IMG/VR virus record: IMGVR_UViG_3300017788_003148
Span: 1-42,004 of that record
From: a virus
Strand: one strand, 5' to 3'
Length of the DNA: 42,004 nt
The stretch's first letter is position 1. Each line of letters starts with the position of its first letter. Made by a program: the position numbers and the translations under genes. Below are positions 13 to 17,860 of this stretch, piece after piece. The notes beneath the pieces were generated by a model. It had not been told where the DNA came from. It saw only the letters and a list, made by a program, of their open reading frames with translations, and made no database searches.

Positions 13-1455
13 TCATGACCAATCTCTATTATAATGCCATGTGGGGCGAATGAGGTCCGACATATCTACTAGTTCTATTTCAGAAACTGATGAACAAAGA
101 CTATTTGTATTATATGCTCTGTATCCTGACCACGCCCTTTGATCAAACATAATATGGGCTCGGGGTACTATTTCTTTTAATTTTTTTAGTGTATAATTTT
201 CCATCTCTACCCGATATTTTAAACTATAAAATACACTTGTTGAATGATAATTGAATACATGATTTAAATTTATTAACGTACACGGATCGTCTAATTCGGG
301 ATCTATCCAATAGCCTTGATCTTTACCATTGGGTCCTTCGTAATGTAAAAAATCTTTATATCGAAATTCGAATTTGACTTTTTCTTTTATCGTATTCCAA
401 AATTCCTTCCACGAATATCGTTTTTCGATTTCCGACCATTTTTTTTCTAATCCCTCTTTAGTTCCTAGCCATATATTTTCAGGTAAATTTAAGAATTTTG
501 ATTTTCTTATAGAAAATCCATTTAGAAAATTTATATAATCGTTGCCATCCCAGTTAACTAGTTCTTGCATAAATTCTAGACTTAACAGATTATAATCTGT
601 AAATCTTACGGTAGTATTAGAATCGAAGCCATAATAATTTAGATAATGCACAAAGTCTAAACCCATAGCAGGAGAAACTAGATATTTTAGATTTCCATTT
701 AATTTCGGACCGAAATAGATAGAACCTGTACTAAAAGGATTAACCCAATTTCTTGAAGCAACATTTTGTTCTAGATAAAATTCGCTTAATCTAGAGATTA
801 TATCGCTGTTATTATCTGGATAAAGATATTTTTTACTATTTCTAAACTCGTCATTAAAAACATAAACGTTTAGCGAATTTCTTAAAGCTTCTGAAATAAT
901 ATTCCAACCATGGCATTTATGATAATAAACCGTTTCTTCATTGCCCGGTTTGATCCATTTAGGTGTATATTCGTCGTGAAAATTATCTGCACTTCTAATA
1001 GGCGACATTTGATAATGAGTTTTACCTAATTCTCTTTCTCCGATAATAGGACATTTTAATCTGCGGTGATATTCGAGATTAATAATAAAACACTGAGGAT
1101 GTAGTTCGTAATATGCTTCTTTTTTATCTAATATATGTCCTAAAATATAAAAATCATTTTCCTTACAAAATCTCTCGACAAGAGAATAAAAATTTAAATT
1201 ATCGGAGGTTACAGACCCCATAGATGATACAATAGCATAGTCGTATTCTTGGCATGCCTGCCGGAGAATATAATCGGCATCGTAGCCGATTAATACATCG
1301 AATCCCATACCTGTAATTTTTCCAATCTCGAAATCAGCATTATTTTTAACTATCTCTTGTACCCAATTATTTGGATATAGAGAATGATCGTCAATCATAC
1401 AGAATACTATCTTTTTTTGTTCGAACTTAGTAGAATTGAATTTAATTATAGCCAT
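13..1455 (-). CDS. Hypothetical protein, 480 aa
   Basis: I do not recognise this protein. It is a soluble-looking 480-residue product without a clear signal peptide or membrane segment. It is rich in Tyr, Trp and Asn, and its N-terminal part (FCMIDDH near residues 18-24, then VLIGYDADYIL) has the look of an alpha/beta fold with an acidic loop, as in nucleotide-sugar-using enzymes, but no diagnostic motif is visible. The ATG at 1455 lies inside the end of the upstream hydroxylase gene (14-base overlap), so the two are probably co-translated as the last genes of a leftward operon that begins at 6301. Ends in TGA. A glycosyltransferase-like role is only a guess. Confidence 0.6.
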   Translation of the reverse strand: MAIIKFNSTKFEQKKIVFCMIDDHSLYPNNWVQEIVKNNADFEIGKITGMGFDVLIGYDADYILRQACQEYDYAIVSSMGSVTSDNLNFYSLVERFCKENDFYILGHILDKKEAYYELHPQCFIINLEYHRRLKCPIIGERELGKTHYQMSPIRSADNFHDEYTPKWIKPGNEETVYYHKCHGWNIISEALRNSLNVYVFNDEFRNSKKYLYPDNNSDIISRLSEFYLEQNVASRNWVNPFSTGSIYFGPKLNGNLKYLVSPAMGLDFVHYLNYYGFDSNTTVRFTDYNLLSLEFMQELVNWDGNDYINFLNGFSIRKSKFLNLPENIWLGTKEGLEKKWSEIEKRYSWKEFWNTIKEKVKFEFRYKDFLHYEGPNGKDQGYWIDPELDDPCTLINLNHVFNYHSTSVFYSLKYRVEMENYTLKKLKEIVPRAHIMFDQRAWSGYRAYNTNSLCSSVSEIELVDMSDLIRPTWHYNRDWS

Positions 1456-2191
1456 GTTGTTTTTTGTAACTTCTATAAATTAGATCAGAAAACTCGTTGA
1501 TCTTATTTCCGATTACTGCTTCAGCTATGACATGTATCCTATCTTTATCGCTGCGATTGATTACACTATGGTTTTTCGTGATATTGATAATAAACATATC
1601 TCCGGGTTGAAACGGAACTGTGCCAGTGTTTTCTATCACAAAATCACATCCTTGGGGATGTATTAATGCTACATTAATTGCCACCGACTTGTCAAGAACT
1701 TTTAGTTCTGATAGATTGGCTAGTTTCATGTTAGATGGTCGGTCATTATGTATTCCTATAAATCCGTTCGACTTTAATTTCATAAATCGCAATCTTCGAA
1801 ATCTTTCTACCGGAAATTTTTTCCAAAATTCTGTGACTTTAGGTGTTTTTGCAGATAGTTCAGTCCATTGGAATTGATCGTTATCGGCAGATTCATCTGC
1901 TTCTGTATGAGTTATTGATGTTCCGTGTATACAGCAACTCATCCAATCCTGATGCTTTTGATCGATATAATTTTCCGAACTACGATGATGTACGTAATGT
2001 GGTTCGACCATCGCAGATTCTTCGATCCAGTCATTTAAATTTATATCGATATCTATTTTTAACCAACCCATCGAATCTTGTTCAAAAAGCCATTTTGTTA
2101 ATTCCAATGGAGTTAATCCCGAAGGCGGCACTGGAGCTAACCATGATTTATTTTTATGCATTTGAAAAAAAGATTCTAGATTAGCTGTCAT
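1442..2191 (-). CDS. Aspartyl/asparaginyl beta-hydroxylase-like 2OG-Fe(II) oxygenase
   Basis: A 249-residue protein with the double-stranded beta-helix pattern of 2-oxoglutarate iron oxygenases: H148-x-D150 (GIHNDRP), a distal H208 (NHSVIN) and R218 (DRIHVIAEA), the last suited to bind the 2OG carboxylate. The stretch GCDFVIENTGTVPFQPGDMF before the distal His is typical of the aspartyl/asparaginyl hydroxylase branch. The expected reaction is hydroxylation of a peptide or small molecule coupled to 2OG decarboxylation; the substrate is unknown. It overlaps the radical SAM gene upstream by 11 bases and the 480-aa gene downstream by 14. It is one of eight related oxygenase-like genes in the island. 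Its C-terminal helix (NEFSDLIYR) resembles the tail that is cut off in the gene at 4525. Confidence 0.75.
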   Translation of the reverse strand: MTANLESFFQMHKNKSWLAPVPPSGLTPLELTKWLFEQDSMGWLKIDIDINLNDWIEESAMVEPHYVHHRSSENYIDQKHQDWMSCCIHGTSITHTEADESADNDQFQWTELSAKTPKVTEFWKKFPVERFRRLRFMKLKSNGFIGIHNDRPSNMKLANLSELKVLDKSVAINVALIHPQGCDFVIENTGTVPFQPGDMFIINITKNHSVINRSDKDRIHVIAEAVIGNKINEFSDLIYRSYKKQHGYN

Positions 2192-3329
2192 TTAATTGTT
2201 CTAAGTTTATAAATTGATCTCCAAACTGACTGATTATTTTTTCTTCCCACCTACCACAAATACGTGAACAAGTAGTTAATTTTTTACTATGCCAGTAGAT
2301 ATTCCAGGCAGATTGCCATTGATGACTATCGATTATTTCTTTAATTGATCTTTGTTTTAAATTAACTGCATTCCATCCTCCGAGATAATTGATAAAATCT
2401 AGCAATGAGTTTTTTTGATCTTGATGATAACTGAAAGTTATATCATTGTGCTCGGCATAACTGTAGTAAGCAGAACCTAAGAAACAACAGGGATAAAGAT
2501 GCCCTTGTGCATCTACATATATGTCTTTTTCTTTTTGTACTTTACATTCAATCTTAGCCGAATTAATATACTTTCGATAATTTTTTATTTTTTCTTTATC
2601 GATAAAGGTTATTTTATTTTCTTTTGGGGGTTCGAGATTATAAGAATGATTTCCTTTTTTATCCTTGACAGAAAAATATGGTTCATGAATAAATCGCCCG
2701 GTAGCTTTATGATTAAATGATAAAAATCCTAATTCTTTTGCCATTTCCTTGGCAGTATCGAGTTGGTGTTCGTTATGTTTGAACGACAGAAATACCCATT
2801 CTGCTTTACCGCCCGATTGTATAAAATTTTTAGCATTTTCGATAATTTTATTAAAGTTAGTCCCTGTTCTATATAGATGATGTGTATCTTCGAGACCATC
2901 GAGCGCAAAATGAACTAGATGATTTTTAGGTAGAATTTGTGCTAATTTTTTCCACCAGGATTTAGATCTAGCACTACCGTTTGTATGTATTGAAATACAT
3001 AGATTGGGGTTAATCTTTGTTGAGTGTTCAATCATCGGTATTAGATCTTTGGCTAGTATAGGATCACCAAAATTTCCACAATAATACATACTCTGAATTT
3101 GTGTTAATACTTCATTATTGAATATTAATTTAAAATCATTCAATGATAACTCATTTACTATTAGATATGGATTTTCTCCGCCGCCGTGATCGTTTCTTGC
3201 GCACATTGGGCAAGACGCTTGGCAATTCGATGTTACTTCTACATGTATCTGTTTTAATTCATTAAATTTAAACATATTATTTCTAATAGAGAATAGTTTT
3301 TCATCTGTAACATCTAATGGTGTATTCAT
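2181..3329 (-). CDS. Radical SAM/SPASM domain protein
   Basis: A 382-residue radical SAM enzyme. The SAM-binding 4Fe-4S motif is C36-x3-C40-x2-C43 (CQASCPMC), followed by YYCGNFGDP near residue 82 in place of GGEP, and IHTNGS near residue 114. C-terminal cysteines (C262, C281, C282, C354, C358) match a SPASM/twitch domain that would hold auxiliary iron-sulfur clusters. SPASM enzymes commonly modify ribosomal peptides or proteins, so a peptide substrate is an inference. The start overlaps the stop of the upstream radical SAM gene (ATGA, 3326-3329), which indicates translational coupling. No obvious precursor peptide lies beside it. Confidence 0.85.
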   Translation of the reverse strand: MNTPLDVTDEKLFSIRNNMFKFNELKQIHVEVTSNCQASCPMCARNDHGGGENPYLIVNELSLNDFKLIFNNEVLTQIQSMYYCGNFGDPILAKDLIPMIEHSTKINPNLCISIHTNGSARSKSWWKKLAQILPKNHLVHFALDGLEDTHHLYRTGTNFNKIIENAKNFIQSGGKAEWVFLSFKHNEHQLDTAKEMAKELGFLSFNHKATGRFIHEPYFSVKDKKGNHSYNLEPPKENKITFIDKEKIKNYRKYINSAKIECKVQKEKDIYVDAQGHLYPCCFLGSAYYSYAEHNDITFSYHQDQKNSLLDFINYLGGWNAVNLKQRSIKEIIDSHQWQSAWNIYWHSKKLTTCSRICGRWEEKIISQFGDQFINLEQLNDS

Positions 3330-4444
3330 TTAAAATCTTTCTTATTGAGATTAAAATCTATTCTAGTTTCTGGACCAGTCATCACTCTATGACCTTGATA
3401 CCAACCTTTTCTCAATCCATCCCTTAAAATTGATTGGATTAAAAATGTACTAAATGTGTTTGGCATAAACATAGCGTAAGGTCCCATGTACATATAACTA
3501 GTATCAACTGTTTTTACTGTTGCCCAATGTATGATCTGTAAGTTTTGCCGGCCATCTAAAATGTGCCCAACATGATAAGGATTACTTCCATAATTTGGAT
3601 GTTTTTCAAATTTTATATTTTTCTTTTGAGCGATCTCACTGATCCATTTTACAATATCGCTTGCAAAAATTTCTCCATTATTCACATAAGGCACGCCGAT
3701 TTCAGCTGGCGAACGAATACAAAAATCTTTTGGTTTTACATTGTGTTCTAACAACCAGAGAATTTTGTCAATTACTTTTTCAACTTGTTCTTTACTTTCG
3801 ACTGTGAAGGACAATTGGCCAAAATTTAAATCAGAATTAATCAAATTAATTAGTGTCTTATTTACATTCTTCCAAACTTTTTCATTATGATAGTCTTGAT
3901 GATGTATACTCATATTAATCCACTTTAATCCTGCGTTTTTAAGTGAATTTAAATATTGTTCATTCTGTAACCTAATTCCATTTGTGTATACACTACAAAT
4001 TCTATTTTCTTCGCCACGAAATTTTAAATTTTGTATTTCTCTTATAATAATTGGCAAGTCATCTCTTATAGTAGGTTCACCGCCAGATAAACATATATCG
4101 TTTGTTGGTGCAGTATCAACTTTTTTGAGTATCCATTCCAAGGACTTATCTCCAATTTTATTGTCTGGTATGAAATAACAATGTTTACACCTAACATTAC
4201 ATCGATCAGTAACTTCAATAACCGTAACATTATTATAATTGTCGTATGTAGCGTTAGGACTTTTTTGCACACAACTGTCCCAAAACTTGTAATCCCTCTC
4301 AACCATAGCCTCTTCATAACCGTGTTCTGGACAGGTCTTTGTGATGTAAGCAGCACCATCACTTCTATATTCTATATGAGCTGGCAATTCTCTATAACAG
4401 GTACCGCACAACCCTGTTGTAAAGTATTTTTTTATTATTTCCAT
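3326..4444 (-). CDS. Radical SAM protein with N-terminal zinc-ribbon-like motif (Tes/MmpA-like)
   Basis: A 372-residue protein. The N-terminus has C13-x2-C16 followed by C38-P-E-H41-G, the layout seen in archaeal tetraether synthase (Tes) and the methanopterin methylase MJ0619 family. The radical SAM motif is C82-x3-C86-x2-C89 (CNVRCKHCY) and GGEP is at 121-124. It is shorter than the roughly 500-residue archaeal enzymes and shows few C-terminal cysteines, so the accessory cluster domain may be reduced. Those relatives join or methylate unactivated sp3 carbons; the substrate here is unknown. Its ATG is in a TAATG arrangement with the frame that continues past the TAG of the upstream hydroxylase gene. 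Confidence 0.8.
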   Translation of the reverse strand: MEIIKKYFTTGLCGTCYRELPAHIEYRSDGAAYITKTCPEHGYEEAMVERDYKFWDSCVQKSPNATYDNYNNVTVIEVTDRCNVRCKHCYFIPDNKIGDKSLEWILKKVDTAPTNDICLSGGEPTIRDDLPIIIREIQNLKFRGEENRICSVYTNGIRLQNEQYLNSLKNAGLKWINMSIHHQDYHNEKVWKNVNKTLINLINSDLNFGQLSFTVESKEQVEKVIDKILWLLEHNVKPKDFCIRSPAEIGVPYVNNGEIFASDIVKWISEIAQKKNIKFEKHPNYGSNPYHVGHILDGRQNLQIIHWATVKTVDTSYMYMGPYAMFMPNTFSTFLIQSILRDGLRKGWYQGHRVMTGPETRIDFNLNKKDFK

Positions 4445-4524: not shown

Positions 4525-5232
4525 CTATATGATTGTTTCCTGATCTAAGGATAATGCAAGAATGTCTTTAACCCAGACACTACCATATATATGTACACGA
4601 TCGGTATTACCTCTATTGTCTGTGCTGTGTAGATATGTGGTGTTAACAAGATAACACCAACCATCGGCGGGTAAATGAACATCTTCGCCATTGATAATAA
4701 ACTTAGCTTCTGGGTTTGTGATAATAGGTATATGAAATCTAAATTTATTATCTTCGTCCTGATGCTGAGGTAATTTAGTCTGCGGAGTATGAACAGCAAT
4801 TTGTATATCGTGAGGCGGACAAGGCATAGAAGAAAAAATTTCAAGAGCATATCCTTTACAACATTCTCTCGCACCTAACGGTTCGTCTCTGATGTTTCTA
4901 GGCATCAATGCATCATATTCCGGTTTAGCTATGTATCTCAGCCAAGGTACAGGTCCTTTTCTATCATCCCCCCAAGTGAGCATTAACCAGGAAGTATCTG
5001 TTTTTAATCCATCTCCAGTTAATTTATTAGCATCATATTTCCACATATCTTTGTGTTTGCCATAAAACCAAAACCAGTCTGAATATTCTTTTTTTGTTTG
5101 AGAATACCATTCTAATAATTTGTTTTGATCTATTTTAAACCATTTTTTAATGATCCAACCGGTATCGATTATTGGATAATCTGTGATGCAATCAACTACA
5201 GATGACAGAGGGTTTGAATTCATCTCGATCAT
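4525..5232 (-). CDS. Aspartyl/asparaginyl hydroxylase-like oxygenase, probably truncated by in-frame TAG
   Basis: A 235-residue beta-helix oxygenase with H157-x-D159 (LPQHQDED), distal H202 (YLHSTDNRG) and R212 (DRVHIYGSVW), so the catalytic core is complete. Translation stops at a TAG (4525-4527). The same frame stays open for 26 more codons and then ends at TAA in a TAATG overlap with the next gene. The extra residues (HEFVTDLIFKIKERDT) resemble the C-terminal helix of the paralogue at 1442-2191 (NEFSDLIYRSYKK). The TAG is therefore probably a recent nonsense change, a readthrough site or a sequence error. The ATG overlaps the upstream stop as ATGA (5229-5232). Confidence 0.75.
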   Translation of the reverse strand: MIEMNSNPLSSVVDCITDYPIIDTGWIIKKWFKIDQNKLLEWYSQTKKEYSDWFWFYGKHKDMWKYDANKLTGDGLKTDTSWLMLTWGDDRKGPVPWLRYIAKPEYDALMPRNIRDEPLGARECCKGYALEIFSSMPCPPHDIQIAVHTPQTKLPQHQDEDNKFRFHIPIITNPEAKFIINGEDVHLPADGWCYLVNTTYLHSTDNRGNTDRVHIYGSVWVKDILALSLDQETII

Positions 5233-5813
5233 GATTCTAATCTTCGTATTACTTCTTCTATAGATGGCACAGGAAATTTAATTCCTAGAGAAACAGAAGT
5301 TCTTAATTCGGGGGCTACAATTAAATGTGGAATACTGGTGTTGATTAATGCAGGGCCTTGATCATTCCATATCGCGCTCGGCCGAATTCCTTTAACATTT
5401 ATTGGTATATATGCTGTTACGTTATCGGTTTTCCATCCAGTGTCAATTTCATTTTCAAATCTAACAGTTTTATCGATATTATCTATGTCATAGAAATTTA
5501 CTTGACTTTTGTTAGTATTTAAAGTCCAATTTATGGCACAGGGTGATATTTCTCCACAAGCATCGCAATCGATATGTGCCCATATTGGATCATTACAAAA
5601 CCAATTCCAGATTATAATTTTATCTATTAATATCTCTTTGGATTTTAAATATGCTACAAATTCTAAATTTAAAATGTTAGGGTCAAATGTCTGTTTATGT
5701 ACGAATTGATCAGATATATTTTTTTCTTCTATTATTTTCACAGATCGAACATCGACAAGATTATTAAAATCAAACGGCAGTAGATGCGAAATGTTTTTAT
5801 AGAATATTGTCAT
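5229..5813 (-). CDS. 2OG-Fe(II) oxygenase-like protein
   Basis: A 194-residue protein with H80-x-D82 (AHIDCD), a distal H163 (SIPHLIV) and R171 (RTSVSLG). The layout is that of a compact 2OG oxygenase core, a form common in marine phages. Between the metal ligands, ACGEISPCAINWTLNT followed by VNFYD is a pattern shared with similar phage proteins I have seen. Substrate unknown. It is joined to both neighbours by ATGA overlaps (5229-5232 and 5810-5813), so it belongs to the same leftward operon. No SD is evident, consistent with reliance on coupled translation. Confidence 0.7.
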   Translation of the reverse strand: MTIFYKNISHLLPFDFNNLVDVRSVKIIEEKNISDQFVHKQTFDPNILNLEFVAYLKSKEILIDKIIIWNWFCNDPIWAHIDCDACGEISPCAINWTLNTNKSQVNFYDIDNIDKTVRFENEIDTGWKTDNVTAYIPINVKGIRPSAIWNDQGPALINTSIPHLIVAPELRTSVSLGIKFPVPSIEEVIRRLES

Positions 5814-6301
5814 GGCGCGATATTTGTTGCGATCTGCAGAGAGATTTTAGGTAAAAATCCTATATTAACAGCACCATGCCATATTTGATTATCCTCGAAT
5901 TCGAATAAATCTCCTGCTTGATAATTTGTCAAGATTTTATCAGCGTAGGTAAAAATATGACCGGGTTGATAGTCTTGATAAGCCATCCAGAATCTTTTTA
6001 ATTTAATATTGTCGGAGTAAGAATCAACATGCATAGGAAACATATCGCCTGGATTTAGTTTACTAAACCACCAATGATAAACCTGATCAAATGGTAAATT
6101 GATATCGTTTCCTAAATGACGATGATCGTAAAACTCCCATCTTAACTTTTTAATATCGTAGCCTGCTTCCACCCATTTTTTGTATACCTCAGATTGGTGA
6201 TTTTGAGTGGTATCTGTTGGTCGAACGTCACCGATATTTTTGATTATTTTTTCAATGACAATATTGGATACTAAATGACGATAATTTCCAAGATATTTCA
6301 T
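5810..6301 (-). CDS. Small 2OG oxygenase-like hydroxylase
   Basis: A 163-residue beta-helix protein with H91-x-D93 (PMHVDSY) and distal H142 (WHGAVNIGF). A lysine (PKISLQI, K152) sits where the 2OG-binding arginine is expected. It is a clear paralogue of the gene at 16418-16987, which keeps the order SPGKCVPWHWD ... GHIF ... H-x-GVN-GF-PK. This is the first gene of the leftward operon running to position 13. The ATG at 6301 has no SD; a GATAAATA box ends five bases before it, which suggests a very short or absent leader. Confidence 0.7.
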   Translation of the reverse strand: MKYLGNYRHLVSNIVIEKIIKNIGDVRPTDTTQNHQSEVYKKWVEAGYDIKKLRWEFYDHRHLGNDINLPFDQVYHWWFSKLNPGDMFPMHVDSYSDNIKLKRFWMAYQDYQPGHIFTYADKILTNYQAGDLFEFEDNQIWHGAVNIGFLPKISLQIATNIAP

Positions 6302-6306
6302 AAAAA

Positions 6307-6314
6307 TATTTATC
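6307..6314 (-). promoter_or_regulatory. Candidate T4-type late promoter box (GATAAATA)
   Basis: GATAAATA on the minus strand matches seven of eight bases of the T4 late -10 element TATAAATA. It ends five bases before the ATG at 6301, so the expected transcript would begin at or next to the start codon. The same octamer occurs upstream of genes at 14597 and 19102. Confidence 0.4.
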
Positions 6315-6327
6315 GGGCTGCAGGATC

Positions 6328-6335
6328 ATTAAATA
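6328..6335 (+). promoter_or_regulatory. Candidate late promoter box (ATTAAATA)
   Basis: ATTAAATA lies six bases before the ATG at 6342, which has no convincing SD. It is divergent from the GATAAATA box at 6307-6314. It resembles the T4 late -10 element, but with two mismatches to TATAAATA in AT-rich DNA it is weak on its own. Confidence 0.3.
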
Positions 6336-6341
6336 TATTTT

Positions 6342-7760
6342 ATGTCAGAAAATATCTACTGGTTAAAACCAGAAAATACTAAACTAGGGTTATGGCAACA
6401 CAACATTCAAAAAATAACAGATAGCCATACTTTTTGTATTCTACCTTGGATACATTTTGCTACAAGACCCAATGGAGATATGCGGCTTTGTTGTAATTCT
6501 AATTCCAGTGGGGCGGGATTTGATCATGCTATCGGGTTAGTAAAAAACGAAATAGGAGTTCCGGCAAATTTTGGTAGAGAAACTCCGATGAGCGCATGGA
6601 ACAACGACTATATGCGCAGTGTAAGAACGGCGATGTTAGATAATAAAATTCCCTCTAGCTGTAAAAAATGTTTCGACGAAGAATCAAACAATGTCATATC
6701 TAAACGTATGTGGGAAACAGTAACTTGGATGGATGAGGGATTAGATTTAGCAGAGTTAATCGACCAAACTTCTCAGGATGGTAGTGTGCCTGAAAAATTA
6801 TTTTATCTCGATCTTAGATTAGGTCATACTTGTAATTTAAAATGTATTATGTGTAGTCCTCATGATAGCAGCCAATGGGTTGCAGATCATAAAAAAGTAT
6901 ATCCGTTATTCCAACATACTGAGCTTAAGAAACAGATGACTTGGGATAGAAAAAGTTTTGATAATTTTTGGCATGAGAATCCCGAGTTTTGGAAAGAAAT
7001 GTACCAACAAATACCCAATTTGAAGCAGATATATTTTGCCGGCGGCGAGCCTTTAATGATAAAAGAACATAAGTTATTTCTTGAAGAAATAGTTCGACAA
7101 GGTTATGCTGATAAAATATTGATAAGATACAATACCAACGGATTATTAATCGATGATGAAATTATAAATTTATGGAAGCATTTTAAAAAGGTTAAAGTTG
7201 GAGTAAGCATAGATGCACTCGACGAAAGAAATTATTATATAAGATTTCCAACCGATTGGAGTAAAGTTGTGAAGAATTTACATAAACTTGATAATACTCC
7301 TGAAAGTATACAAGTTAGCATAGCTACTGCGATTCAGATTTTAAATATCAAACATCTTCCAGATTTTGCAAAATGGAAAATAATTCAGGGGTTTAAAAAA
7401 ATAAATTTTGAAAATGTTATCGAAGGTATGCAGGCCGGTGGCGGGATTTTTAATATGCATCTTTTATATATACCAACATTCTTAAGTATTAAATGCCTGC
7501 CCGAAAATGAAAAAACAGAAGTAAGAAAAATTTTTGCAAAATTTGCAGATTGGCTATTCGAAAATTATAGGCAGGATACCGATTTTTGGAAATATAATCC
7601 GTACGGATGGAAACGTTGGCAAGCGATATTAGATTTTATGAATAGTGAAGATCATACACATTTATTGCCTGCATTTCGAGAATATATAGAAACAATGGAT
7701 AAACAAAGAGGATTGAATTTTAGAAAGACATTTCCTGAATTAGAGTCATTGTTATGTTAA
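6342..7760 (+). CDS. Twitch domain-containing radical SAM protein
   Basis: A 472-residue radical SAM enzyme of the type with an N-terminal twitch domain. Its cluster cysteines are C32 (FCILPWIHF), C50-C51 (MRLCCNS) and C107-x2-C110 (CKKC), placed ahead of the core motif C164-x3-C168-x2-C171 (CNLKCIMC). AGGEP is at 233-237. Such proteins are widespread in marine phages; the reaction is not known. It is the outer member of a mirror pair: twitch radical SAM then short radical SAM on the plus strand here, facing the same two types on the minus strand (8738-10949). It overlaps the next gene by seven bases. Confidence 0.88.
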   Translation: MSENIYWLKPENTKLGLWQHNIQKITDSHTFCILPWIHFATRPNGDMRLCCNSNSSGAGFDHAIGLVKNEIGVPANFGRETPMSAWNNDYMRSVRTAMLDNKIPSSCKKCFDEESNNVISKRMWETVTWMDEGLDLAELIDQTSQDGSVPEKLFYLDLRLGHTCNLKCIMCSPHDSSQWVADHKKVYPLFQHTELKKQMTWDRKSFDNFWHENPEFWKEMYQQIPNLKQIYFAGGEPLMIKEHKLFLEEIVRQGYADKILIRYNTNGLLIDDEIINLWKHFKKVKVGVSIDALDERNYYIRFPTDWSKVVKNLHKLDNTPESIQVSIATAIQILNIKHLPDFAKWKIIQGFKKINFENVIEGMQAGGGIFNMHLLYIPTFLSIKCLPENEKTEVRKIFAKFADWLFENYRQDTDFWKYNPYGWKRWQAILDFMNSEDHTHLLPAFREYIETMDKQRGLNFRKTFPELESLLC

Positions 7761-10949: not shown

Positions 10950-11661
10950 ATTGTCCGGTCCTATAATTTTTATAGTTTATATTATCGATTTCACCTTCGC
11001 AGCTTCTTGTTAATACTAGAAGGTCGCTGAGATTTAAATCGATATATTTTTTTAAAATCCAACTTTTCTCTATAAATCTAAACGGATGGCATGCTATAAC
11101 GCCCATATGATTCATGATAGACAAGTAAAATTTACTTTTATTAAATTCAATATCTCGAGTAGGCATACCATTTTTTATATTTGGTGGATTTTTAGTTACC
11201 GCATTAAAGTATGCATCAATTTTGTGATTAAAACACACATATTCAGCAAATGCCCTAAGTTCTATGTTATCACCACTAACAGTTTTTCCATATTCATCGA
11301 TCATGGTTGGGCCTTTATCTCCCCACTCCATCTCAGGCGGAACAAAATTTTCGTGTCTAACAAATGACAAGTTTTTGAATTTGTTTTTTAAATAATTATA
11401 TACATTAATGCTATTTTCTTTTTGCCACGGCTTCGTTTTCCAACATCGAATATTAGATATTACATGTATTTCTATATCTAAATTCATTTTAGATATTATA
11501 TCTAGTATTAGATATGACATTAATGCGCTGTCAGCTCCACCACTTATAGCTAGGGAAATCTTAGACCATTTTTTATCTATAGGGAAATAAACACCATCGA
11601 TCTCGGATAAAATATCTGCGTATTCACTTTCTTGATAAACAATGTTTAGATCGTCGATCAT
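10882..11661 (-). CDS. QueC-like PP-loop ATPase
   Basis: A 259-residue PP-loop protein with the ATP-pyrophosphatase motif SGGADS (residues 40-45). The C-terminus has TRSC (C221) and then C242-GE-C245-FW-C248-KERA, the four-cysteine zinc arrangement of 7-cyano-7-deazaguanine synthase (QueC: SC ... CGxCxxCxxR). QueC adenylates 7-carboxy-7-deazaguanine and uses ammonia to make preQ0. The spacing between the first and second zinc Cys is longer than usual and the middle of the protein is divergent. It may therefore be QueC for the queE/dpdA pathway in the right part, or an amide/nitrile-forming enzyme for the radical SAM island. Overlaps: four bases with the upstream gene, 68 with the downstream one. 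Confidence 0.72.
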   Translation of the reverse strand: MIDDLNIVYQESEYADILSEIDGVYFPIDKKWSKISLAISGGADSALMSYLILDIISKMNLDIEIHVISNIRCWKTKPWQKENSINVYNYLKNKFKNLSFVRHENFVPPEMEWGDKGPTMIDEYGKTVSGDNIELRAFAEYVCFNHKIDAYFNAVTKNPPNIKNGMPTRDIEFNKSKFYLSIMNHMGVIACHPFRFIEKSWILKKYIDLNLSDLLVLTRSCEGEIDNINYKNYRTGQYVPICGECFWCKERAWATEHAK

Positions 11662-13160
11662 AAATTTAATTTTTTATTAATATATTCATCTTTGATTTTT
11701 AGACATTTTTGTCTGAGCGGTTCTTCTTCAAATCGAGTTATTAGGTCTTGAACATCGGGTGATATATTTGATTCGTTAAGAGTTAGCCCGTGTTCTAAAC
11801 TTTCGCAGACCGGCAACATACTAAACAATTTCCAACTATCTATGTATGCCGGACGAAAATTTTTTATTTCGTAGTCTACTAGATCGATAGCATCATACAT
11901 ATTCATGTTATCGTTTTCCCATATAGTTAAATCATTAGAGAAAAAATTATGCCGATTATATAATGTTCGCTTCTCAGTGCCCATCAATCGGTAACCATAT
12001 TTCTCATAATTTTCATCTAATTTAGATTTTTTTCCGACTAGACTGATGTTTAAGGGAAATGCTATAACGCTTTGTTTGTTCCAATTGTTACATAGCCAAT
12101 TTAAGCCATCGAGAATAGATTCTTTGGTCTCTCTTGGAAGACCATATATTAATGAAACTGTACCTCGATATAGCCCTAAATTTTTTGTAAAATAGTCTTC
12201 GGTATTCAATAATCCGGATTTAATTTTATCCGGATGCATACCCTTACCTATAAGTTTTCCTGTTTCGTGATTAAATGTTTCTATACCATAATAATGCGCC
12301 CATACCCTGGCGTCTGCTAATAATTTAAGTTGTTCTGGTCTACTAAAAAGTATGTCACCTCTAATAAAAGCACTAAAATTTAAGTCGAATGGAACGTCAT
12401 TGACAATTTTACCGATTTTAACTAATTTTTCATCTCGATCATTTAAAGTTTCGTCTGCGACTTGATAATTAGTACATCCGAATTCATAATAATTTCTTAA
12501 TAATTCGTCTTTTAAAGAAGTTAAATCTCTAGTGGTATCTTCCTTGACTCCGAGGACAGGAAAATTACAGAATGTACAGGCAAATTTACATCCTCTCGAA
12601 AATTCTAAAGCCAGTGTTTCATTAGGAAAAATAAAATCTCGAAATTCATAATCTATAGAAAGATCACTGATCGGCCACGCCTGATAAAACGCATTAGCGT
12701 CTATATACCAGCCATTGTTTCTAGGAATGCCTTTAATAGGTTTTCCATTGCTAAAAATATATTTTAATACTTCAACTATAGCAATTTCACCGAACCCACC
12801 AATTATATAATCAATATCATCATATATTTTAAAATGAGTGCTGGGATTTTGACCACCTGCGATTGTTACGATTCCGGGATATTCTTCTTTTACATGTTTT
12901 AAAAAGTCAACCATCATCTGTTGGACAGGGTCCGAAGAGTAGTTTATCCATGTACAGCTAAATCCAACCCATGATATCTTTTTTTGTTGATTCCTTATCG
13001 ATATTAGTTCTTTTAATTGATCTAAATTCCAGCGATAAAAAAAATCAACAACTTCAACATTCCAGCCATGCTTTCTTAAAACAGTGGCGATACGATACGC
13101 ACCGCTGACTCTTTCGAGGCCGCTAGATCGTTCATAGCCAGTAAAAATTATAGCGTTCAT
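11658..13160 (-). CDS. B12-binding-like domain radical SAM protein
   Basis: A 500-residue protein. The N-terminal ~140 residues have the Rossmann-like pattern of a cobalamin-binding domain (AIIFTGYERSSGLERVSGAYRIA, then VGFSCT and IAGGQNPS), without a visible DxHxxG motif for the lower-ligand His. The radical SAM core has C191-x3-C195-x2-C198 (CKFACTFC) within EFSRGCKFACTFCNFPVLG. Class B relatives perform methylations or ring chemistry. It is the first gene of a leftward operon with the PP-loop ATPase and two further radical SAM genes. A palindromic TATTTAATTAAATA box ends four bases before the ATG and no SD is visible. Confidence 0.85.
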   Translation of the reverse strand: MNAIIFTGYERSSGLERVSGAYRIATVLRKHGWNVEVVDFFYRWNLDQLKELISIRNQQKKISWVGFSCTWINYSSDPVQQMMVDFLKHVKEEYPGIVTIAGGQNPSTHFKIYDDIDYIIGGFGEIAIVEVLKYIFSNGKPIKGIPRNNGWYIDANAFYQAWPISDLSIDYEFRDFIFPNETLALEFSRGCKFACTFCNFPVLGVKEDTTRDLTSLKDELLRNYYEFGCTNYQVADETLNDRDEKLVKIGKIVNDVPFDLNFSAFIRGDILFSRPEQLKLLADARVWAHYYGIETFNHETGKLIGKGMHPDKIKSGLLNTEDYFTKNLGLYRGTVSLIYGLPRETKESILDGLNWLCNNWNKQSVIAFPLNISLVGKKSKLDENYEKYGYRLMGTEKRTLYNRHNFFSNDLTIWENDNMNMYDAIDLVDYEIKNFRPAYIDSWKLFSMLPVCESLEHGLTLNESNISPDVQDLITRFEEEPLRQKCLKIKDEYINKKLNL

Positions 13161-13164
13161 GGTA

Positions 13165-13178
13165 TATTTAATTAAATA
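13165..13178. promoter_or_regulatory. 14-bp palindrome between divergent genes, candidate bidirectional late promoter
   Basis: TATTTAATTAAATA is a perfect palindrome giving an ATTAAATA box in each direction. On the minus strand the box ends four bases before the ATG at 13160. On the plus strand it lies about 20 bases before the ATG at 13198, which has its own SD. Reading it as a T4-like late promoter pair is inference. Confidence 0.35.
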
Positions 13179-13197
13179 GTCATTGAAGGAAAAAATA

Positions 13198-13890
13198 ATG
13201 CAGTTTGACTATTATTATAATAACGTTCCCGGAATAGGGCAAGTGCGTAACAATTTAGTTTATACTAGCCTGATCTCTCGAGACAAAAAAATCTTTGTGC
13301 AATGGTTTACCAATGATACTGAATACCATCGAGGAAAAAATGAAATAATTGATCCTGAATTGATGGAAGAAAAATGGCTGAGAGAATTAAAACATTCGGA
13401 ATTAATGCGAACCCGTTTTAAAGAGGATCTATTGGAGGTCGACGATATAGATCATCGAGAAAAGAAAATTTTTTTAAAGATACAAGGGAATGACTTTTGG
13501 CAGCAACATTTTGATCAAAAAATGAGTTTTGATCAGTTAGTGCCCGGATGGAGATCGCAGATGTTAGGAATGTTTAAAAATTACAGATCTCTTGGATTAT
13601 ATAAATTTTCTCTCCATCCTAGCAGTTATTTTATTATTAATGGAAAGCTAAAATCTATTAACTATTTTTTTAGTTATTTAGGAACAGAGTCGCCCCCTGT
13701 GCTAGAATCTCATAGAAGTTATATTAGTTGGGAAAGGCAAGCCAAATTAAAAAAATATATGGACACGATCGGGATTAATTGGCAAACTAGGTTATCTTTT
13801 AAAGATTCCCAGATTTTGTGTTTCGAAAGTTTCAAGAATGATTACCCTGAAGGGTTTATTGATGAGGCTAAACACATATATGATAACTGA
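13198..13890 (+). CDS. Hypothetical protein, 230 aa
   Basis: Not recognised. I start it at ATG 13198 because AAGGA (13186-13190) lies seven bases upstream; the open frame begins earlier only through a TTG at 13183. The protein is rich in Trp, Tyr, Lys and Asp. The segment SLHPSSYFIINGKLKSINYFF near residues 140-160 vaguely recalls the catalytic-loop/metal-loop spacing of aminoglycoside-phosphotransferase-like kinases, but I see no complete kinase motif. It heads a rightward operon of hydroxylases and unknown proteins and overlaps the next gene by 29 bases. Confidence 0.65.
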   Translation: MQFDYYYNNVPGIGQVRNNLVYTSLISRDKKIFVQWFTNDTEYHRGKNEIIDPELMEEKWLRELKHSELMRTRFKEDLLEVDDIDHREKKIFLKIQGNDFWQQHFDQKMSFDQLVPGWRSQMLGMFKNYRSLGLYKFSLHPSSYFIINGKLKSINYFFSYLGTESPPVLESHRSYISWERQAKLKKYMDTIGINWQTRLSFKDSQILCFESFKNDYPEGFIDEAKHIYDN

Positions 13891-14569
13891 TGTCGGAATA
13901 CATGTAGATTTAAAACCGTTTTTATCTGATCTGGAACGAGCATCTTGGGACGACAAAAATCGATGTTCGCTTAATAAACCTACTGGAAATTGGTTATATG
14001 ATCCTTATGAATTTTTGCCTGATTGGAAAAATACTAGTTTTGAAAGATTTTTAAATTTTTTACCGTTTCCGATCGGCGAGGCTCGATTGATTAAGTTGTC
14101 ACATGGTGAATGCTATCATAGTCATGCCGATATAGATGATAGATATCATTTAAACTTAACCAGCAATGATGGTTGTTTTCTTTTAGAGCTCGACGGTAAT
14201 CAGATTCACGCCTTTCCGATTAAATCAGATGGTATTTTATATAGGATGGATGCAGGAAAAATTCATACTGCGGTTAATTTTGGATCTTCTGACAGGATCC
14301 AATTAGTTGTACGAGTCCCCTTAATTCGTTCAAATTTTGACAATTTAGAATCGATAACGATAGAATTTTTAGATAAATTAACCGACCTACGATTTAAAAT
14401 AGATAATTCAATAATGCCGATTTTGAATAGATTAAACAAGATTCATAGAATAGCAGATTTTAGTAGCATTTCTGAAACAGCATTTTCTTTAAGAATCGAA
14501 AAATATTATATTCCTCAGATAATCGCTGCGATCGATCAGTTGGGATTAACATATAAGATATTGAGATAA
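13862..14569 (+). CDS. Aspartyl/asparaginyl hydroxylase-like 2OG oxygenase
   Basis: A 235-residue beta-helix oxygenase with H88-x-D90 (CYHSHADIDDRYH), distal H135 (AGKIHTAVNFG) and R145 (DRIQLVVRV). The order and spacing match the aspartyl/asparaginyl hydroxylase branch. I choose ATG 13862 because GAAGGG (13849-13854) lies seven bases upstream; ATG 13838 and ATG 13880 are possible alternatives. The C-terminal ~80 residues after the core are helical and unmatched. A GATAAATA box overlaps the stop region (14565-14572), so a new transcript may begin just downstream. Confidence 0.7.
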   Translation: MRLNTYMITDVGIHVDLKPFLSDLERASWDDKNRCSLNKPTGNWLYDPYEFLPDWKNTSFERFLNFLPFPIGEARLIKLSHGECYHSHADIDDRYHLNLTSNDGCFLLELDGNQIHAFPIKSDGILYRMDAGKIHTAVNFGSSDRIQLVVRVPLIRSNFDNLESITIEFLDKLTDLRFKIDNSIMPILNRLNKIHRIADFSSISETAFSLRIEKYYIPQIIAAIDQLGLTYKILR

Positions 14570-14572
14570 ATA
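14565..14572 (+). promoter_or_regulatory. Candidate T4-type late promoter box (GATAAATA)
   Basis: GATAAATA overlaps the TAA of the preceding gene and lies 24 bases before the ATG at 14597, leaving room for a leader with an SD (GAGGGG). It is the same octamer as at 6307 and 19143. Confidence 0.45.
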
Positions 14573-14596
14573 ACAATAACCGAGGGGAATACTACA

Positions 14597-15397
14597 ATGG
14601 CACCGATCTACGGAAGTTTAGATTATCTTAGATCAAAAATGACAAGCTGGACACAAGAGTCAGCTTTAGAGTTTCACACTGAATATTATAAAGGATATCC
14701 AGAAAAATCCAAATATATATGGGAAGAAGCTAACACAGATGACACTGAAGGATTTGTTTATTATGGTCCAGATATGGCTTCCTATTTTAGCGCCGACGGC
14801 AGCGAATATGTTTTAAGTCACTGGTTTGATCAGTTAGAGTTTGATAAAGTCTGGAAAGCTGGAAAAAAGTTGTATGAGGATAGCCTTAATGATCCAGATT
14901 TTTCTATAGTTAGACCCATTGGATTTCCTTCAGGTTTAATGGGATCTTCTTATCGAGTTATGCAACTCGACCAATATGCTTACAATTATTACAAATTAGA
15001 GCATCCTAACAATGAGTTGGGATCATTATTAGTGTTTTCGAATTCGGTGCAAACGGTCCCCGAATACTTAAATCTTTTTATAAATCAGGTCACTAAGCTA
15101 ATTCAATATGCTAAACCGATAGTCGAAGATTGTTCTAGTTATCGAAATACGAACGATTCGTCTGGTTGGGGATATCCAGGAATTAAAATTAATGATTTAA
15201 TGACTAATTCTTCTGGCCCTTATTGGCGATTTTTATACAAGTGGTCGATGACTCCTACCGGATTTTACAGCAAGGTCTATGGCGAATTAGAAAAAATGAT
15301 ACAGCATATTAACATCAACGAGCAATATAGGAATGATGTACCGTCGGGTATTTTAGAACAAGCGAGTGCGACATGGAAAAACGAATTAAATATCTAA
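14597..15397 (+). CDS. Hypothetical protein, 266 aa
   Basis: Not recognised. The 266-residue product is aromatic-rich (many Trp and Tyr), with no Cys cluster, HxD motif, signal peptide or membrane segment. It has the best translation signals of the island: GAGGGG (14582-14587) nine bases before the ATG, and a late-type promoter box at 14565. High expression together with lack of catalytic motifs would fit a structural or substrate protein, but that is inference. The next gene overlaps its end by 25 bases. Confidence 0.7.
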   Translation: MAPIYGSLDYLRSKMTSWTQESALEFHTEYYKGYPEKSKYIWEEANTDDTEGFVYYGPDMASYFSADGSEYVLSHWFDQLEFDKVWKAGKKLYEDSLNDPDFSIVRPIGFPSGLMGSSYRVMQLDQYAYNYYKLEHPNNELGSLLVFSNSVQTVPEYLNLFINQVTKLIQYAKPIVEDCSSYRNTNDSSGWGYPGIKINDLMTNSSGPYWRFLYKWSMTPTGFYSKVYGELEKMIQHININEQYRNDVPSGILEQASATWKNELNI

Positions 15398-15645
15398 ATT
15401 ATAGAGTTTTAAGAAATAACCAACTGCTTCATTCAGGGACTGTTCCTGAAATTTTAGCGTTAAGCGGCTTAGAAAAAACATGGAATCTAGGTGGAGTCTG
15501 GTTGAATTATCGACATAATGAAGAAACTATCTTAGAATTCAGCGATGGAAATCGTACGATAGCGATTTCATCTAAATCGACAGAGCATGAGTGGGTGAGT
15601 TATGTTAATAAAATCGATCAAGGATTACTCCAAGAGAAATATTAA
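15373..15645 (+). CDS. Hypothetical small protein, 90 aa
   Basis: Not recognised. A 90-residue basic N-terminal and mixed beta-looking protein. Its 25-base overlap with the preceding gene and the three-base gap to the following GTG start place it firmly in the rightward operon. No metal, Cys or membrane motif. It could be a small adaptor or a substrate of the neighbouring oxygenases; nothing in the sequence decides this. Confidence 0.6.
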   Translation: MEKRIKYLNYRVLRNNQLLHSGTVPEILALSGLEKTWNLGGVWLNYRHNEETILEFSDGNRTIAISSKSTEHEWVSYVNKIDQGLLQEKY

Positions 15646-15648
15646 TCT

Positions 15649-16428
15649 GTGATTAGAGGAATTAATAATCAGCCTTTTCTTGATCTTGACGCTTGGTTAG
15701 ACATCGAAGGATTTAAAAATCTGCATTATGAGATGTGTTATGGTCTAGCGGTTTCTTCTTGGAAAAAAGAAGGAAATATAGTTAAACCGGGCGGATGTGA
15801 TCAGTATGACCCTAGCTTTAAACCAATTTTTAAATCTTTAGAAGAATATTTTTCTTTGCCCGAGGACCACGAAATACGAAAGTATGGCAAAATAATTGGC
15901 GAATTAGATAATAGAAATACGTTTATCAATTTTTTAAAGTTATCTTTGGGGGCATATGATCCTTATCAATTTATTTTTTTAAAAACAGAAGACGGTGGGT
16001 GGCAGTCTAGATTCCAAGAAAAACAATGGACCCCCGATTCTGAAAACTTTCCTAATCTTAAAAAGTGGATAGAAAAATTAATCGAAGATCGTGTTTTTCA
16101 GCACTTAGGTAGAATTATTTTTTTTAAAGCCGAGCATGATGTTATTATGCCAAAACATCGAGATCTAATATTACCGCATGAAACTGAATATACTGATCAC
16201 AGACATGAATTTATACACATAAGATCAACGATGGATAAAAAATTTTATATCTGGGATAACGATATTGATGTATATCATTATGTCAATTGTTATTCTTGTT
16301 TTTTTAACGATCAAGATTGGCACGGGGGAGAAGCCAACGATCGACAGACTTTTTCATTAAGAATAGATGGCAGATTCACTGATGAATTCAGACAAAAAAT
16401 AGGGATATCTCATCTATCTATCTACTAA
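15649..16428 (+). CDS. 2OG oxygenase-like protein (paralogue of 17000 gene)
   Basis: A 259-residue protein starting with GTG. The start is supported by alignment of its first residues (INNQPFLDLDAWLDI) with those of the paralogue at 17000 (INKAPYITLDNYLDI). Candidate iron ligands are H170-x-D172 (PKHRDL) and H225 (DWHGG), with R238 (SLRIDG) for the 2OG carboxylate. The shared C-terminal block GRFT-EFR-IGI is a family signature. Substrate unknown. The 3' end overlaps the convergent gene at 16418 by 11 bases. Confidence 0.65.
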   Translation: MIRGINNQPFLDLDAWLDIEGFKNLHYEMCYGLAVSSWKKEGNIVKPGGCDQYDPSFKPIFKSLEEYFSLPEDHEIRKYGKIIGELDNRNTFINFLKLSLGAYDPYQFIFLKTEDGGWQSRFQEKQWTPDSENFPNLKKWIEKLIEDRVFQHLGRIIFFKAEHDVIMPKHRDLILPHETEYTDHRHEFIHIRSTMDKKFYIWDNDIDVYHYVNCYSCFFNDQDWHGGEANDRQTFSLRIDGRFTDEFRQKIGISHLSIY

Positions 16429-16987
16429 CTCCGATAATGTGTAATATATATTTAGGATCAAATCCGCAATTGACTCCTAAATGATAATCGTTCCACTCAT
16501 TCCATTCAAACACACTCCCCTGTTCTACTAGATAAAAACATTGGTTACCGACTACAAAGATATGACCTAATTTCGGCGGGTCGATGAATACAGTAAATCT
16601 TTTTATCTTTCCTTCCCGGCTCCAACTCTGAGAGTTAGATTCGATATCCCAATGCCACGGAACACATTTTCCAGGAGAGATTCCACTGATCCAAATATTT
16701 TTAGCAGACACAGATAATCTATCTATCAGCGGTGTTAAAAGATTTCGAGTAAAATGCTGATCTGGATAATAATTTGTCCATTCTATAACATTTTGTTCGA
16801 TATACCCAGCATCTTTCCACGAATCGTACATTTTTTTAATTTCTGTTTGTTGATACTGATCTACATTGATGTTTTTTCCGTAAGGAGTTTGATGGGTTTT
16901 AACATGCCCGCATGCCGAAGATATTTCTTTTAATAGTAAATCGAAATTTAATAATGTTTCAGAGTTTAACAAATATTTTGTTGACAT
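16418..16987 (-). CDS. 2OG oxygenase-like hydroxylase (paralogue of 5810 gene)
   Basis: A 189-residue beta-helix protein with H112-x-D114 (VPWHWDIE) and distal H169 (DYHLGVNCGF). As in its paralogue at 5810, a lysine follows (DPKYILHI) where Arg is usual. It is a single-gene leftward unit inserted between two rightward paralogues of another oxygenase family. It ends with TAG. Its ATG is separated from the divergent ATG at 17000 by only 12 bases, leaving no space for an SD, so its transcript is likely leaderless or starts inside the neighbour. Confidence 0.68.
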   Translation of the reverse strand: MSTKYLLNSETLLNFDLLLKEISSACGHVKTHQTPYGKNINVDQYQQTEIKKMYDSWKDAGYIEQNVIEWTNYYPDQHFTRNLLTPLIDRLSVSAKNIWISGISPGKCVPWHWDIESNSQSWSREGKIKRFTVFIDPPKLGHIFVVGNQCFYLVEQGSVFEWNEWNDYHLGVNCGFDPKYILHIIGVSR

Positions 16988-16995
16988 AATAAATA
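16988..16995 (+). promoter_or_regulatory. Candidate late promoter box (AATAAATA)
   Basis: The 12 bases between two divergent ATGs contain AATAAATA, followed by four bases and the ATG at 17000. It matches seven of eight bases of the T4 late -10 element. On the minus strand only a weak GAAATATT faces the ATG at 16987. Confidence 0.35.
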
Positions 16996-16999
16996 TTTC

Positions 17000-17860
17000 A
17001 TGCTTACGATTAACAAAGCTCCATATATTACCTTAGACAACTATTTAGACATTGATAAGTTACTTAATCTCGAAGATGAATTTAATTTTTTAATCTGTAA
17101 AAGCTGGGATAAAATTAGAACAGGAGTATGGAATGCAGGTGGACATGCGCCCGACGATATAGTTAATTTTCCCTCGGTATTTAGAGAGCGGGATCTATTG
17201 TATTACTCCTATGGAAAAGCTAAAGTAGATAGATTGTCTGATATATCGTTAGATAGATATCTAAAACATTTTGAAGAGACTTCAGATAGGCATGGATTAA
17301 GTAGATTTTTAAAATTAAAATATCAATCATTTGATCCTTATAATATATTAAATTTAAGAAAAACTACTAGCAATGTTTATGCTGCTGATGCTTATTCTTT
17401 TACAGACGCCGACTGGGACACTTATAGTTGGGTAGATTATATTGACGAACATCCAATGATAAAAAAGTTTATATTAGATCTTCCGTTTGACAGAATCGGA
17501 ATAGTTACAGTTTTTTATAACGAGCATTTCGTTCCGTTAGGACATCACAGAGATTTAAATTATTTTCCATACGAAAAAGGTAACGCCGCGGAAACTTTCC
17601 CACATAGACAAGAACTTATTTGGTTTAGATTTGATCTATCGAGGCCATTTAATTTATTTGATATAAACATTAACACAGGAAAAATTTTAGAAAAGGTTCC
17701 GGTTCAAGGCTATAGTGTATTTTTCAATCATCACAATTGGCATGGAAATTTTGATCCCTATCCCTATAGTTCAATAACTGTTAAAGTAGAGGGTAGGTTT
17801 ACTTCAGAATTTCGAAAAATGATAGGAATAGATAATTTAAAATATTATTATTACGAATAA
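17000..17860 (+). CDS. 2OG oxygenase-like protein (paralogue of 15649 gene)
   Basis: A 286-residue protein with H183-x-D185 (GHHRDLNYF) and distal H248 (NWHGNFD), followed by VKVEGRFTSEFRKMIGI. The last block is shared with the gene at 15649 (RIDGRFTDEFRQKIGI). Note that the position of the putative 2OG Arg (R238 in the paralogue) reads Lys here. No SD is present; AATAAATA sits four bases before the ATG. The stop lies immediately beside the end of the convergent tail fibre gene (17861). Confidence 0.65.
   Translation: MLTINKAPYITLDNYLDIDKLLNLEDEFNFLICKSWDKIRTGVWNAGGHAPDDIVNFPSVFRERDLLYYSYGKAKVDRLSDISLDRYLKHFEETSDRHGLSRFLKLKYQSFDPYNILNLRKTTSNVYAADAYSFTDADWDTYSWVDYIDEHPMIKKFILDLPFDRIGIVTVFYNEHFVPLGHHRDLNYFPYEKGNAAETFPHRQELIWFRFDLSRPFNLFDININTGKILEKVPVQGYSVFFNHHNWHGNFDPYPYSSITVKVEGRFTSEFRKMIGIDNLKYYYYE

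Follow-up and report, generated by a model that had tools for sequence, protein, structure and literature searches.

The viral record IMGVR_UViG_3300017788_003148 is a linear fragment, analysed here over its entire 42,004 bases (hereafter the window), and its first part (positions 13–17860) forms an island made up mostly of radical S-adenosylmethionine (rSAM) enzymes and oxygenase-like proteins, together with a QueC-family PP-loop ATPase. The left side of the island is truncated by the contig start, and its right edge is a tail fibre gene with an Mtd_N domain (17861–19102). We conclude with high confidence that a core of at least four rSAM proteins (TwiA, TwiB, rSAM300 and rSAM382, usually joined by rSAM352 and c11), the QueC-family ATPase, the oxygenase g15 and c6 is co-inherited, shuffled and yet kept together in phages. 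The features of the island are as follows (g01–g21 are gene numbers, left to right).

13–1455, minus strand: g01, 480 aa, with a GT-A-like N-terminal domain and a Rossmann methyltransferase-like C-terminal domain (AlphaFold2 model at pLDDT 82; partial Foldseek matches to GT-A enzymes and NNMT)
1442–2191, minus strand: g02, Asp/Asn beta-hydroxylase-type 2-oxoglutarate (2OG) oxygenase (PF05118, 1.4e-9)
2181–3329, minus strand: g03, rSAM382, rSAM with a C-terminal SPASM-like domain, core (PF04055, 3.5e-8; 76/80 QueC-like loci)
3326–4444, minus strand: g04, rSAM with an HMPTM zinc ribbon, TrsS/Tes-like by partial match (PF04055, 6.3e-19; PF23545, 1.3e-11; under the equivalog cut-offs)
4525–5232, minus strand: g05, Asp/Asn beta-hydroxylase-type oxygenase (PF05118, 2.1e-10)
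5229–5813, minus strand: g06, HxD...H oxygenase-like, 194 aa (motif alone)
5810–6301, minus strand: g07, HxD...H oxygenase-like, 163 aa, first in its unit (aligned invariant HxD...H; GATAAATA 5 bp before the ATG)
6302–6341, intergenic: divergent promoter gap g07/g08, 40 bp (TAAATA on both strands, 5 and 6 bp before the starts)
6342–7760, plus strand: g08, TwiB, N-terminal-twitch rSAM, core (NF033640, 400 bits; cut-off 170)
7754–8812, plus strand: g09, rSAM352 (PF04055, 4.9e-12)
8738–9640, minus strand: g10, rSAM300 with a C-terminal Cys cluster, core, adjoining TwiA (PF04055, 1.2e-13; 79/80 TwiA loci)
9633–10949, minus strand: g11, TwiA, N-terminal-twitch rSAM, core, the most conserved (NF033640, 320 bits; mostly 69–81% identity in a diverse set)
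10882–11661, minus strand: g12, QueC-family PP-loop ATPase, core (SGGADS, C221 and CxxCxxC kept; the YPDCR of QueC lost)
11658–13160, minus strand: g13, B12-binding rSAM (PF04055, 1.4e-12; PF02310, 1.2e-6)
13161–13182, intergenic: divergent promoter gap g13/g14, 22 bp (TAAATA 4 bp before each start)
13183–13890, plus strand: g14, degenerate protein-kinase-like protein (profile match to TTK kinase, 5.4e-6)
13838–14569, plus strand: g15, beta-hydroxylase-like 2OG oxygenase, core (profile match to 7v4f, 2.6e-18; 73/80 QueC-like loci)
14597–15397, plus strand: g16, variable protein, 266 aa (no close relative; three at 24–27%)
15373–15645, plus strand: g17, 90 aa (relatives searched for, none found)
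15649–16428, plus strand: g18, HxD...H oxygenase-like (invariant HxD...H)
16418–16987, minus strand: g19, HxD...H oxygenase-like (invariant HxD...H)
17000–17860, plus strand: g20, HxD...H oxygenase-like, paralogue of g18 (invariant HxD...H; AATAAATA 4 bp before the ATG)
17861–19102, minus strand: g21, tail fibre with an Mtd_N domain, island edge (PF18454, 8.9e-12; GATAAATA 40 bp upstream)

All island open reading frames (ORFs) are open and intact at these coordinates, and the G+C content is mostly about 0.32–0.34 in the island versus about 0.36–0.43 in the backbone. An earlier, sequence-only reading of this DNA had counted six rSAM enzymes, one too few: the island encodes seven (g03, g04, g08, g09, g10, g11 and g13), each with CxxxCxxC intact, and an eighth, QueE-like rSAM at 27332 belongs to the backbone, outside the island. 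The same reading was borne out on its roughly eight HxD...H oxygenase-like proteins, which are g02, g05, g06, g07, g15, g18, g19 and g20 (assigned by Pfam for g02, g05 and g15, the last also by its PDB profile match; by the aligned motif for g07, g18, g19 and g20; by motif only for g06), and on the QueC-like ATPase, which PF06508 places in the QueC family (matching 13 of 15 g12 relatives, best 4.6e-7). The protein g14 is kinase-like rather than an oxygenase, and the catalytic HxD/DFG pattern of protein kinases was not found in g14/c12, where the region equivalent to HxD reads SLHP/LYPH in the alignment. The genes are arranged as six transcription units on alternating strands beside the tail fibre; the island is thus several units and not a single operon, and the proposed coupling of genes through ATGA overlaps stands at four junctions with exact 4-nt overlaps (g03/g04, g05/g06, g06/g07 and g12/g13) but does not describe the set as a whole.

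Two of the rSAM enzymes, g08 and g11, are full members of N_Twi_rSAM (NF033640, curated cut-off 170 bits), scoring 400 and 320 bits over the full model with the twitch domain preceding the rSAM domain, and TwiA furnishes the clearest dN/dS example (0.09/1.17). The Tes and TrsS equivalogs do not take in g04, which scores 81 and 91 bits against their cut-offs of 450 and 490. At several loci, c31 proteins with a MUG113 (GIY-YIG-like) domain lie between TwiA and rSAM300 (e.g., L080:11319–12128), for which homing-type mobility is possible. Were the island devoted to anti-phage or counter-defence nucleotide chemistry, viperin-like rSAMs would supply chain-terminating nucleotides against competitors, and PADLOC does match its pVip models to five of the rSAMs and PDC-M51A to g13; these matches, however, span only ~100–180 residues of the shared rSAM region, the best NCBIfam score for prokaryotic viperins is 55.5 bits (g10) versus a cut-off of 180, and the other core genes are left unexplained, so that we hold this explanation to be very improbable.

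The recurrence of the core was examined in 2.9 million viral contigs, among which g11 (TwiA) found 244 relatives, with neighbourhoods counted in the best 80 loci. These 80 hold rSAM300 in 79, TwiB in 73, g15 in 64, rSAM382 in 61 and the QueC-like ATPase in 60, along with two core genes that are not on the window fragment, c6 (58; a class I methyltransferase fold by structure comparison) and the rSAM c11 (42). Dereplication at 90% TwiA identity leaves 44 loci with much the same content (rSAM300 43, TwiB 40, g15 38, rSAM382 38, QueC-like 31, c6 33). The association is reciprocal: 80 loci found with the QueC-like query contain rSAM382 (76), TwiA (75), g15 (73), TwiB (68), rSAM300 (68) and c6 (64), and the g01 query returns g02 in all 80 and TwiA in 65, frequently in the order c30 c11 rSAM382 c6 g02 g01 TwiA rSAM300 <rSAM352 <TwiB <SGNH-like <QueC >g15 >c12 >g19. 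By comparison, 80 loci found with a backbone vWA gene as control yield TwiA in 6, TwiB in ~1 and rSAM300 and g15 in none (Fisher P ~1e-31); control loci are often short, and of the 28 that extend to thyA 6 carry a TwiA-type gene, far under 75/80. Core genes thus co-occur in ~75–99% of loci when a member is the query versus 0–8% when the query is a backbone gene, the reciprocal set comprising the two N-terminal-twitch rSAMs, rSAM300, rSAM382, the QueC-like ATPase and g15. At L100, L156–158 and L161 the order is rearranged and the core set retained, and pairwise identity matrices indicate that TwiA, TwiB, rSAM300 and c6 co-evolve (Spearman 0.56–0.75). The expectation of a shared set, checked here on viral contigs, is therefore borne out widely, and homologues do not occur singly and at random.

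Part of the core is also clustered in a few bacteria, predatory and marine. Scanning bacteria with an alignment of TwiA alone gave no matches, a broader twitch alignment being needed; the latter located TwiB relatives at 41–49% identity in metagenome-assembled genomes (MAGs) of Bdellovibrionota (L163, L164, L180, L184 and L217) and in MAGs labelled Neisseriaceae (L165) and Rickettsiales (L166). The neighbours of bacterial TwiB include homologues of rSAM382, c11, c6, c30, rSAM352 or g02, and further arrays of twitch rSAMs; L181 has three QueC-like proteins alongside twitch rSAMs. The marine MAG L166 encodes a 663-aa fusion of a twitch rSAM with an rSAM300/352-type enzyme, which supports the pairing of TwiA and rSAM300. 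Of 114 Bdellovibrionota genomes, 10 carry c6, and c11 is confined to 6 of these 10 (P ~8e-8), with a c6–c11 spacing of 4–5 kb in G013, G016 and G102; among 399 genomes of the L166 phylum, the only c11 is L166's own. In the TwiB tree the phage sequences form one supported clade, separate from the bacterial clade. The sole "cellular" row in the phage clade, L162 (PUNK01000001.1, 3.5 kb, filed under a Thermoplasmata MAG), is probably phage DNA. Two Bdellovibrionota loci (L163:19101–20550 and L181:3765–5229) have a membrane-protein pair adjoining QueC-like and twitch rSAM genes, HTTM-like by eye and without a Pfam hit, and an 876-aa ORF with two CxxxCxxC motifs in Bdellovibrionales (L191:13465–16095) is a possible second rSAM–rSAM fusion.

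These distributions bear on whether the island is simply a variable cargo region in which unrelated accessory genes have gathered. The site does have the character of a tail-fibre-linked hypervariable island (host recognition cluster, HRC), with the fibre at 17861 and content that varies between close backbones: at the thyA-side site, phages whose vWA proteins are 81–88% identical carry large ORFs without rSAMs, or a different rSAM/oxygenase set, and GIY-YIG-like c31 inserts are present. Against this stand the strong reciprocal co-occurrence, its survival through rearrangement and the bacterial replicate. The cargo explanation is largely refuted for the core, and very unlikely for the island overall, although several outer genes (g04, g06, g16 and g17) could plausibly be cargo.

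The right part of the window carries, on the minus strand, T4-type replication and nucleotide genes, including ThyA, DHFR, FolE (by Pfam; 29895–30647), the QueE-like rSAM (27332–28186) and a sliding clamp assigned by position. The DNA polymerase at 38300 has its nearest isolates in the jumbo phages Sinorhizobium Phosso (50%) and Agrobacterium Atu_ph07 (46%); the backbone has no DNA-level matches among isolated phages, and a screen of isolated phages for the module gave only 21–24% matches, all to Vibrio phage rSAMs, the module itself being absent. A 509-aa backbone protein (35971–37500) is suspected to be DpdA/TGT-like, without a Pfam match, and has relatives (44–80% identity) in 8 of 12 large island-bearing contigs.

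The QueC-like ATPase proved informative as to chemistry. Aligned with E. coli QueC, 15 g12 relatives have SGGxDS and the Zn-type cysteines (the CxxCxxC cluster and a fourth cysteine) invariant, and the SGYPDCR segment of the E. coli enzyme is gone: the Tyr/Asp motif of QueC (YPDCR) was not found in the phage proteins, where the alignment places GMxxRD. From the alignment and general knowledge, we take the Tyr and Asp in question to lie within this YPDCR. In QueC these are the residues that recognise 7-carboxy-7-deazaguanine (CDG) (PMC13279940), and QatC likewise replaces them. The QueC-like enzyme probably activates an acid or amide other than CDG. A different account would extend 7-deazaguanine synthesis, with backbone FolE, QueE and the transglycosylase-like protein joining the QueC-like ATPase and the rSAMs to make a hypermodified phage DNA base. 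FolE, the QueE-like rSAM and the spread of the 509-aa protein over island-bearing contigs speak for it; the change from SGYPDCR to GMxxRD, the company that QueC-like proteins keep with twitch rSAMs in the bacterial locus L181 and the want of a Pfam hit for the 509-aa protein speak against it, and we judge it improbable.

That the island is made late, as the sequence-only reading had it, accords with T4-type late-promoter elements lying directly ahead of the leading gene in most of the window's units. Variants of the form NATAAATA/TAAATA directly precede unit starts: in the window TAAATA stands 4–6 bp before g07, g08, g13, g14 and g20 and farther upstream of g16 and the fibre gene. Across related islands, TAAATA lies within 40 bp of first-in-unit genes in 108 of 235 distinct upstreams, with a peak 4–5 bp before the start codon, versus 28 of 738 upstreams of internal genes, without a peak; its density in short divergent gaps is 32 times that overall. 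By the T4-type definition, a TATAAATA-like element lies 5–6 bp upstream of the transcription start, our distances being measured to start codons. The total lack of TATAAATA (zero versus 7.2 expected) was at one point an argument against late expression, since overturned, as the motif is avoided everywhere: among 56 permutations it comes last in frequency, both in the window and in three related phage-locus sets, though not in the bacterial set; ATAAATA likewise ranks last in the window among 21 7-mers of the same composition. The divergent island gaps are just 12–40 bp long (6302–6341, 13161–13182, 16988–16999 and those of related loci), with TAAATA near the start codons, and back-to-back late promoters appear to overlap there. 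The box of T4 late promoters occupies about -13 to -6, which would put transcript 5' ends on the start codon or close by; island transcription is thus probably late and leaderless.

We read the island as a late-expressed, phage-borne biosynthetic module whose most likely product is a host-envelope or virion glycan or glycoconjugate, a proposal that we consider evenly poised, the glycan reading included. A surface glycan is favoured because sugar-handling partners recur in the loci (a UDP-sugar dehydrogenase, an epimerase, the glycosyltransferase (GT)-like c30 and a weak sulfotransferase match), because the bacterial loci, read by eye, hold GT2, AsnB-like and carbamoyltransferase-like genes, and because a precursor peptide was not found. 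The c30 assignment is GT2-like, via a weak Pfam match of a bacterial homologue, and a g02-type oxygenase adjoins g01 relatives in 80/80 loci. Published tail-fibre islands rich in lipopolysaccharide genes (PMC7029224) count in the same direction.

Several observations weigh against a glycan module. The g01 structure finds no confident single-fold match in the PDB (best E ~1e-3, weak) and has no obvious DxD; a fibre homologue occurs at few loci (10/80 with the TwiA query, 4/80 with the QueC query); the contigs are fragments, partly redundant or related, making locus counts non-independent; and QueC, g15 and rSAM382 may be exchanged between phages, leaving the module partly modular, because their identity matrices follow that of TwiA poorly (Spearman 0.37, 0.05 and 0.13). 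Furthermore, most of what is known of twitch/SPASM rSAM and AspH-type enzymes concerns peptides and proteins, which favours protein or peptide modification. In that case the rSAMs and hydroxylases would have as their target a virion protein (e.g., the tail fibre) or a precursor not linked to the island, and the QueC-like enzyme would modify a protein terminus, like Cap9 and, by proposal, QatC. Modification of protein N termini is within the reach of the QueC family (PMC13279940), the fibre adjoins the island in the window, and the islands look late-expressed, like virion genes. The recurring sugar-handling partners, and the scarcity of the fibre homologue—by which the notion of a set always beside tail fibres also falls—count against such a substrate, as does the precursor search: no conserved precursor peptide was found among 1832 small ORFs of 156 phage loci, a distant or unlinked precursor still being possible. 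Recurrent small ORFs were rejected as precursors, apparently being tRNA-gene artefacts, IF-1 and backbone proteins. That no precursor is obvious had been noted from the sequence, but the 266-aa and 90-aa proteins then put forward fare poorly, both lying outside the core: g16, for which the collection gave no close match and only three distant relatives (24–27%) were found, is rejected, and g17 has no relatives found. We regard protein modification as the main alternative, though less likely than not. Two small curiosities of these islands are c42 (72 aa; L043, L044, L056 and L068), a phage-encoded lookalike of translation initiation factor IF-1 close to the island, and a cold-shock domain fused to glutathione peroxidase (L050:19262–19996).

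For a glycoconjugate product, the enzymes would act successively on one scaffold: the rSAMs would make radical C–H changes, TwiA passing to rSAM300; g02/g15-type oxygenases would hydroxylate; sugar attachment might fall to g01, GT-A-like and constantly adjacent to g02, and to GT-like c30; and the QueC-like enzyme could supply ATP-driven activation of a carboxylate or amide other than CDG. Variable genes (short-chain dehydrogenase, epimerase, UDP-sugar dehydrogenase, SGNH-like, sulfotransferase-like and B12-rSAM) would tailor the product, which, made once the late promoters fire, may alter recognition or exclude competitors. More broadly, we tentatively suggest, at somewhat less than even confidence, an undescribed pathway, common to phages of aquatic habitats and part of the Bdellovibrionota, that would use six or seven rSAMs, the QueC-like ATPase and several 2OG-type oxygenases to build a heavily radical-modified (glyco)conjugate, with leaderless T4-type late promoters in the phage. 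Should the pathway prove real, these phages would run a programme of oxygen-sensitive radical enzymes of unusual density during infection, and the bacterial relatives offer a non-viral route toward the product. Scattered remarks on the abundance of radical SAM genes in T4-like phages from the sea become a testable object with a defined core, a bacterial counterpart and promoters, and orphan families (the N-terminal-twitch rSAMs and QueC-like proteins without the CDG motif) gain a strong context for function discovery.

As to whether the system is undescribed, rSAM cassettes in tail-fibre islands (PMC7029224) and a 12-rSAM genome (PMC5332604) had already been noted; the module, its relatives in bacteria and its promoters were not found described, and searches for papers on radical SAM in Bdellovibrio and on the twitch family yielded nothing about the module. 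Prokaryotic viperins resemble the island enzymes in superfamily and partial profile matches and differ in that scores here lie far under the family cut-off. Multi-enzyme pathways for ribosomally synthesised and post-translationally modified peptides, such as nitrilobacillins (PMC13060819), similarly unite rSAMs, 2OG/MNIO oxygenases and an ATP-dependent nitrile/amide synthetase class, but with an AS-like ATPase in place of the QueC-like one and with a precursor peptide, which we did not find here. QueC, Cap9 (type IV CBASS) and QatC (qatABCD) share the PP-loop SGGxDS and C-terminal Zn-type cysteines; here the CDG-binding Tyr/Asp is not conserved and the partners are rSAMs rather than a CD-NTase or QatB. 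The T4-like environmental viral genome TARA_ERS488813_N000010 of Nishimura et al., whose 12 rSAM genes were discussed as Fe–S metabolism (PMC5332604), is alike in its wealth of rSAM genes within a single T4-like genome of marine origin, a likeness taken from the published description. Finally, rSAM cassettes and an Asp/Asn beta-hydroxylase were reported in 2020 from tail-fibre islands of pelagimyophages, marine T4-like phages (PMC7029224). The passages considered describe neither a conserved multi-rSAM module nor a QueC-like protein, and mention no counterpart in bacteria and no promoter feature; the polymerase here is nearest to those of jumbo phages Phosso and Atu_ph07; the pelagimyophage/cyanomyophage host recognition cluster nonetheless shares with our island its hypervariability, tail fibres, glycosyltransferases and marine T4-like setting, and the variability at the thyA-side site fits a hypervariable cluster beside tail fibres as published there. 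At its N terminus the fibre itself (17861–19102) has the domain that occupies this place in the Bordetella-phage major tropism determinant.

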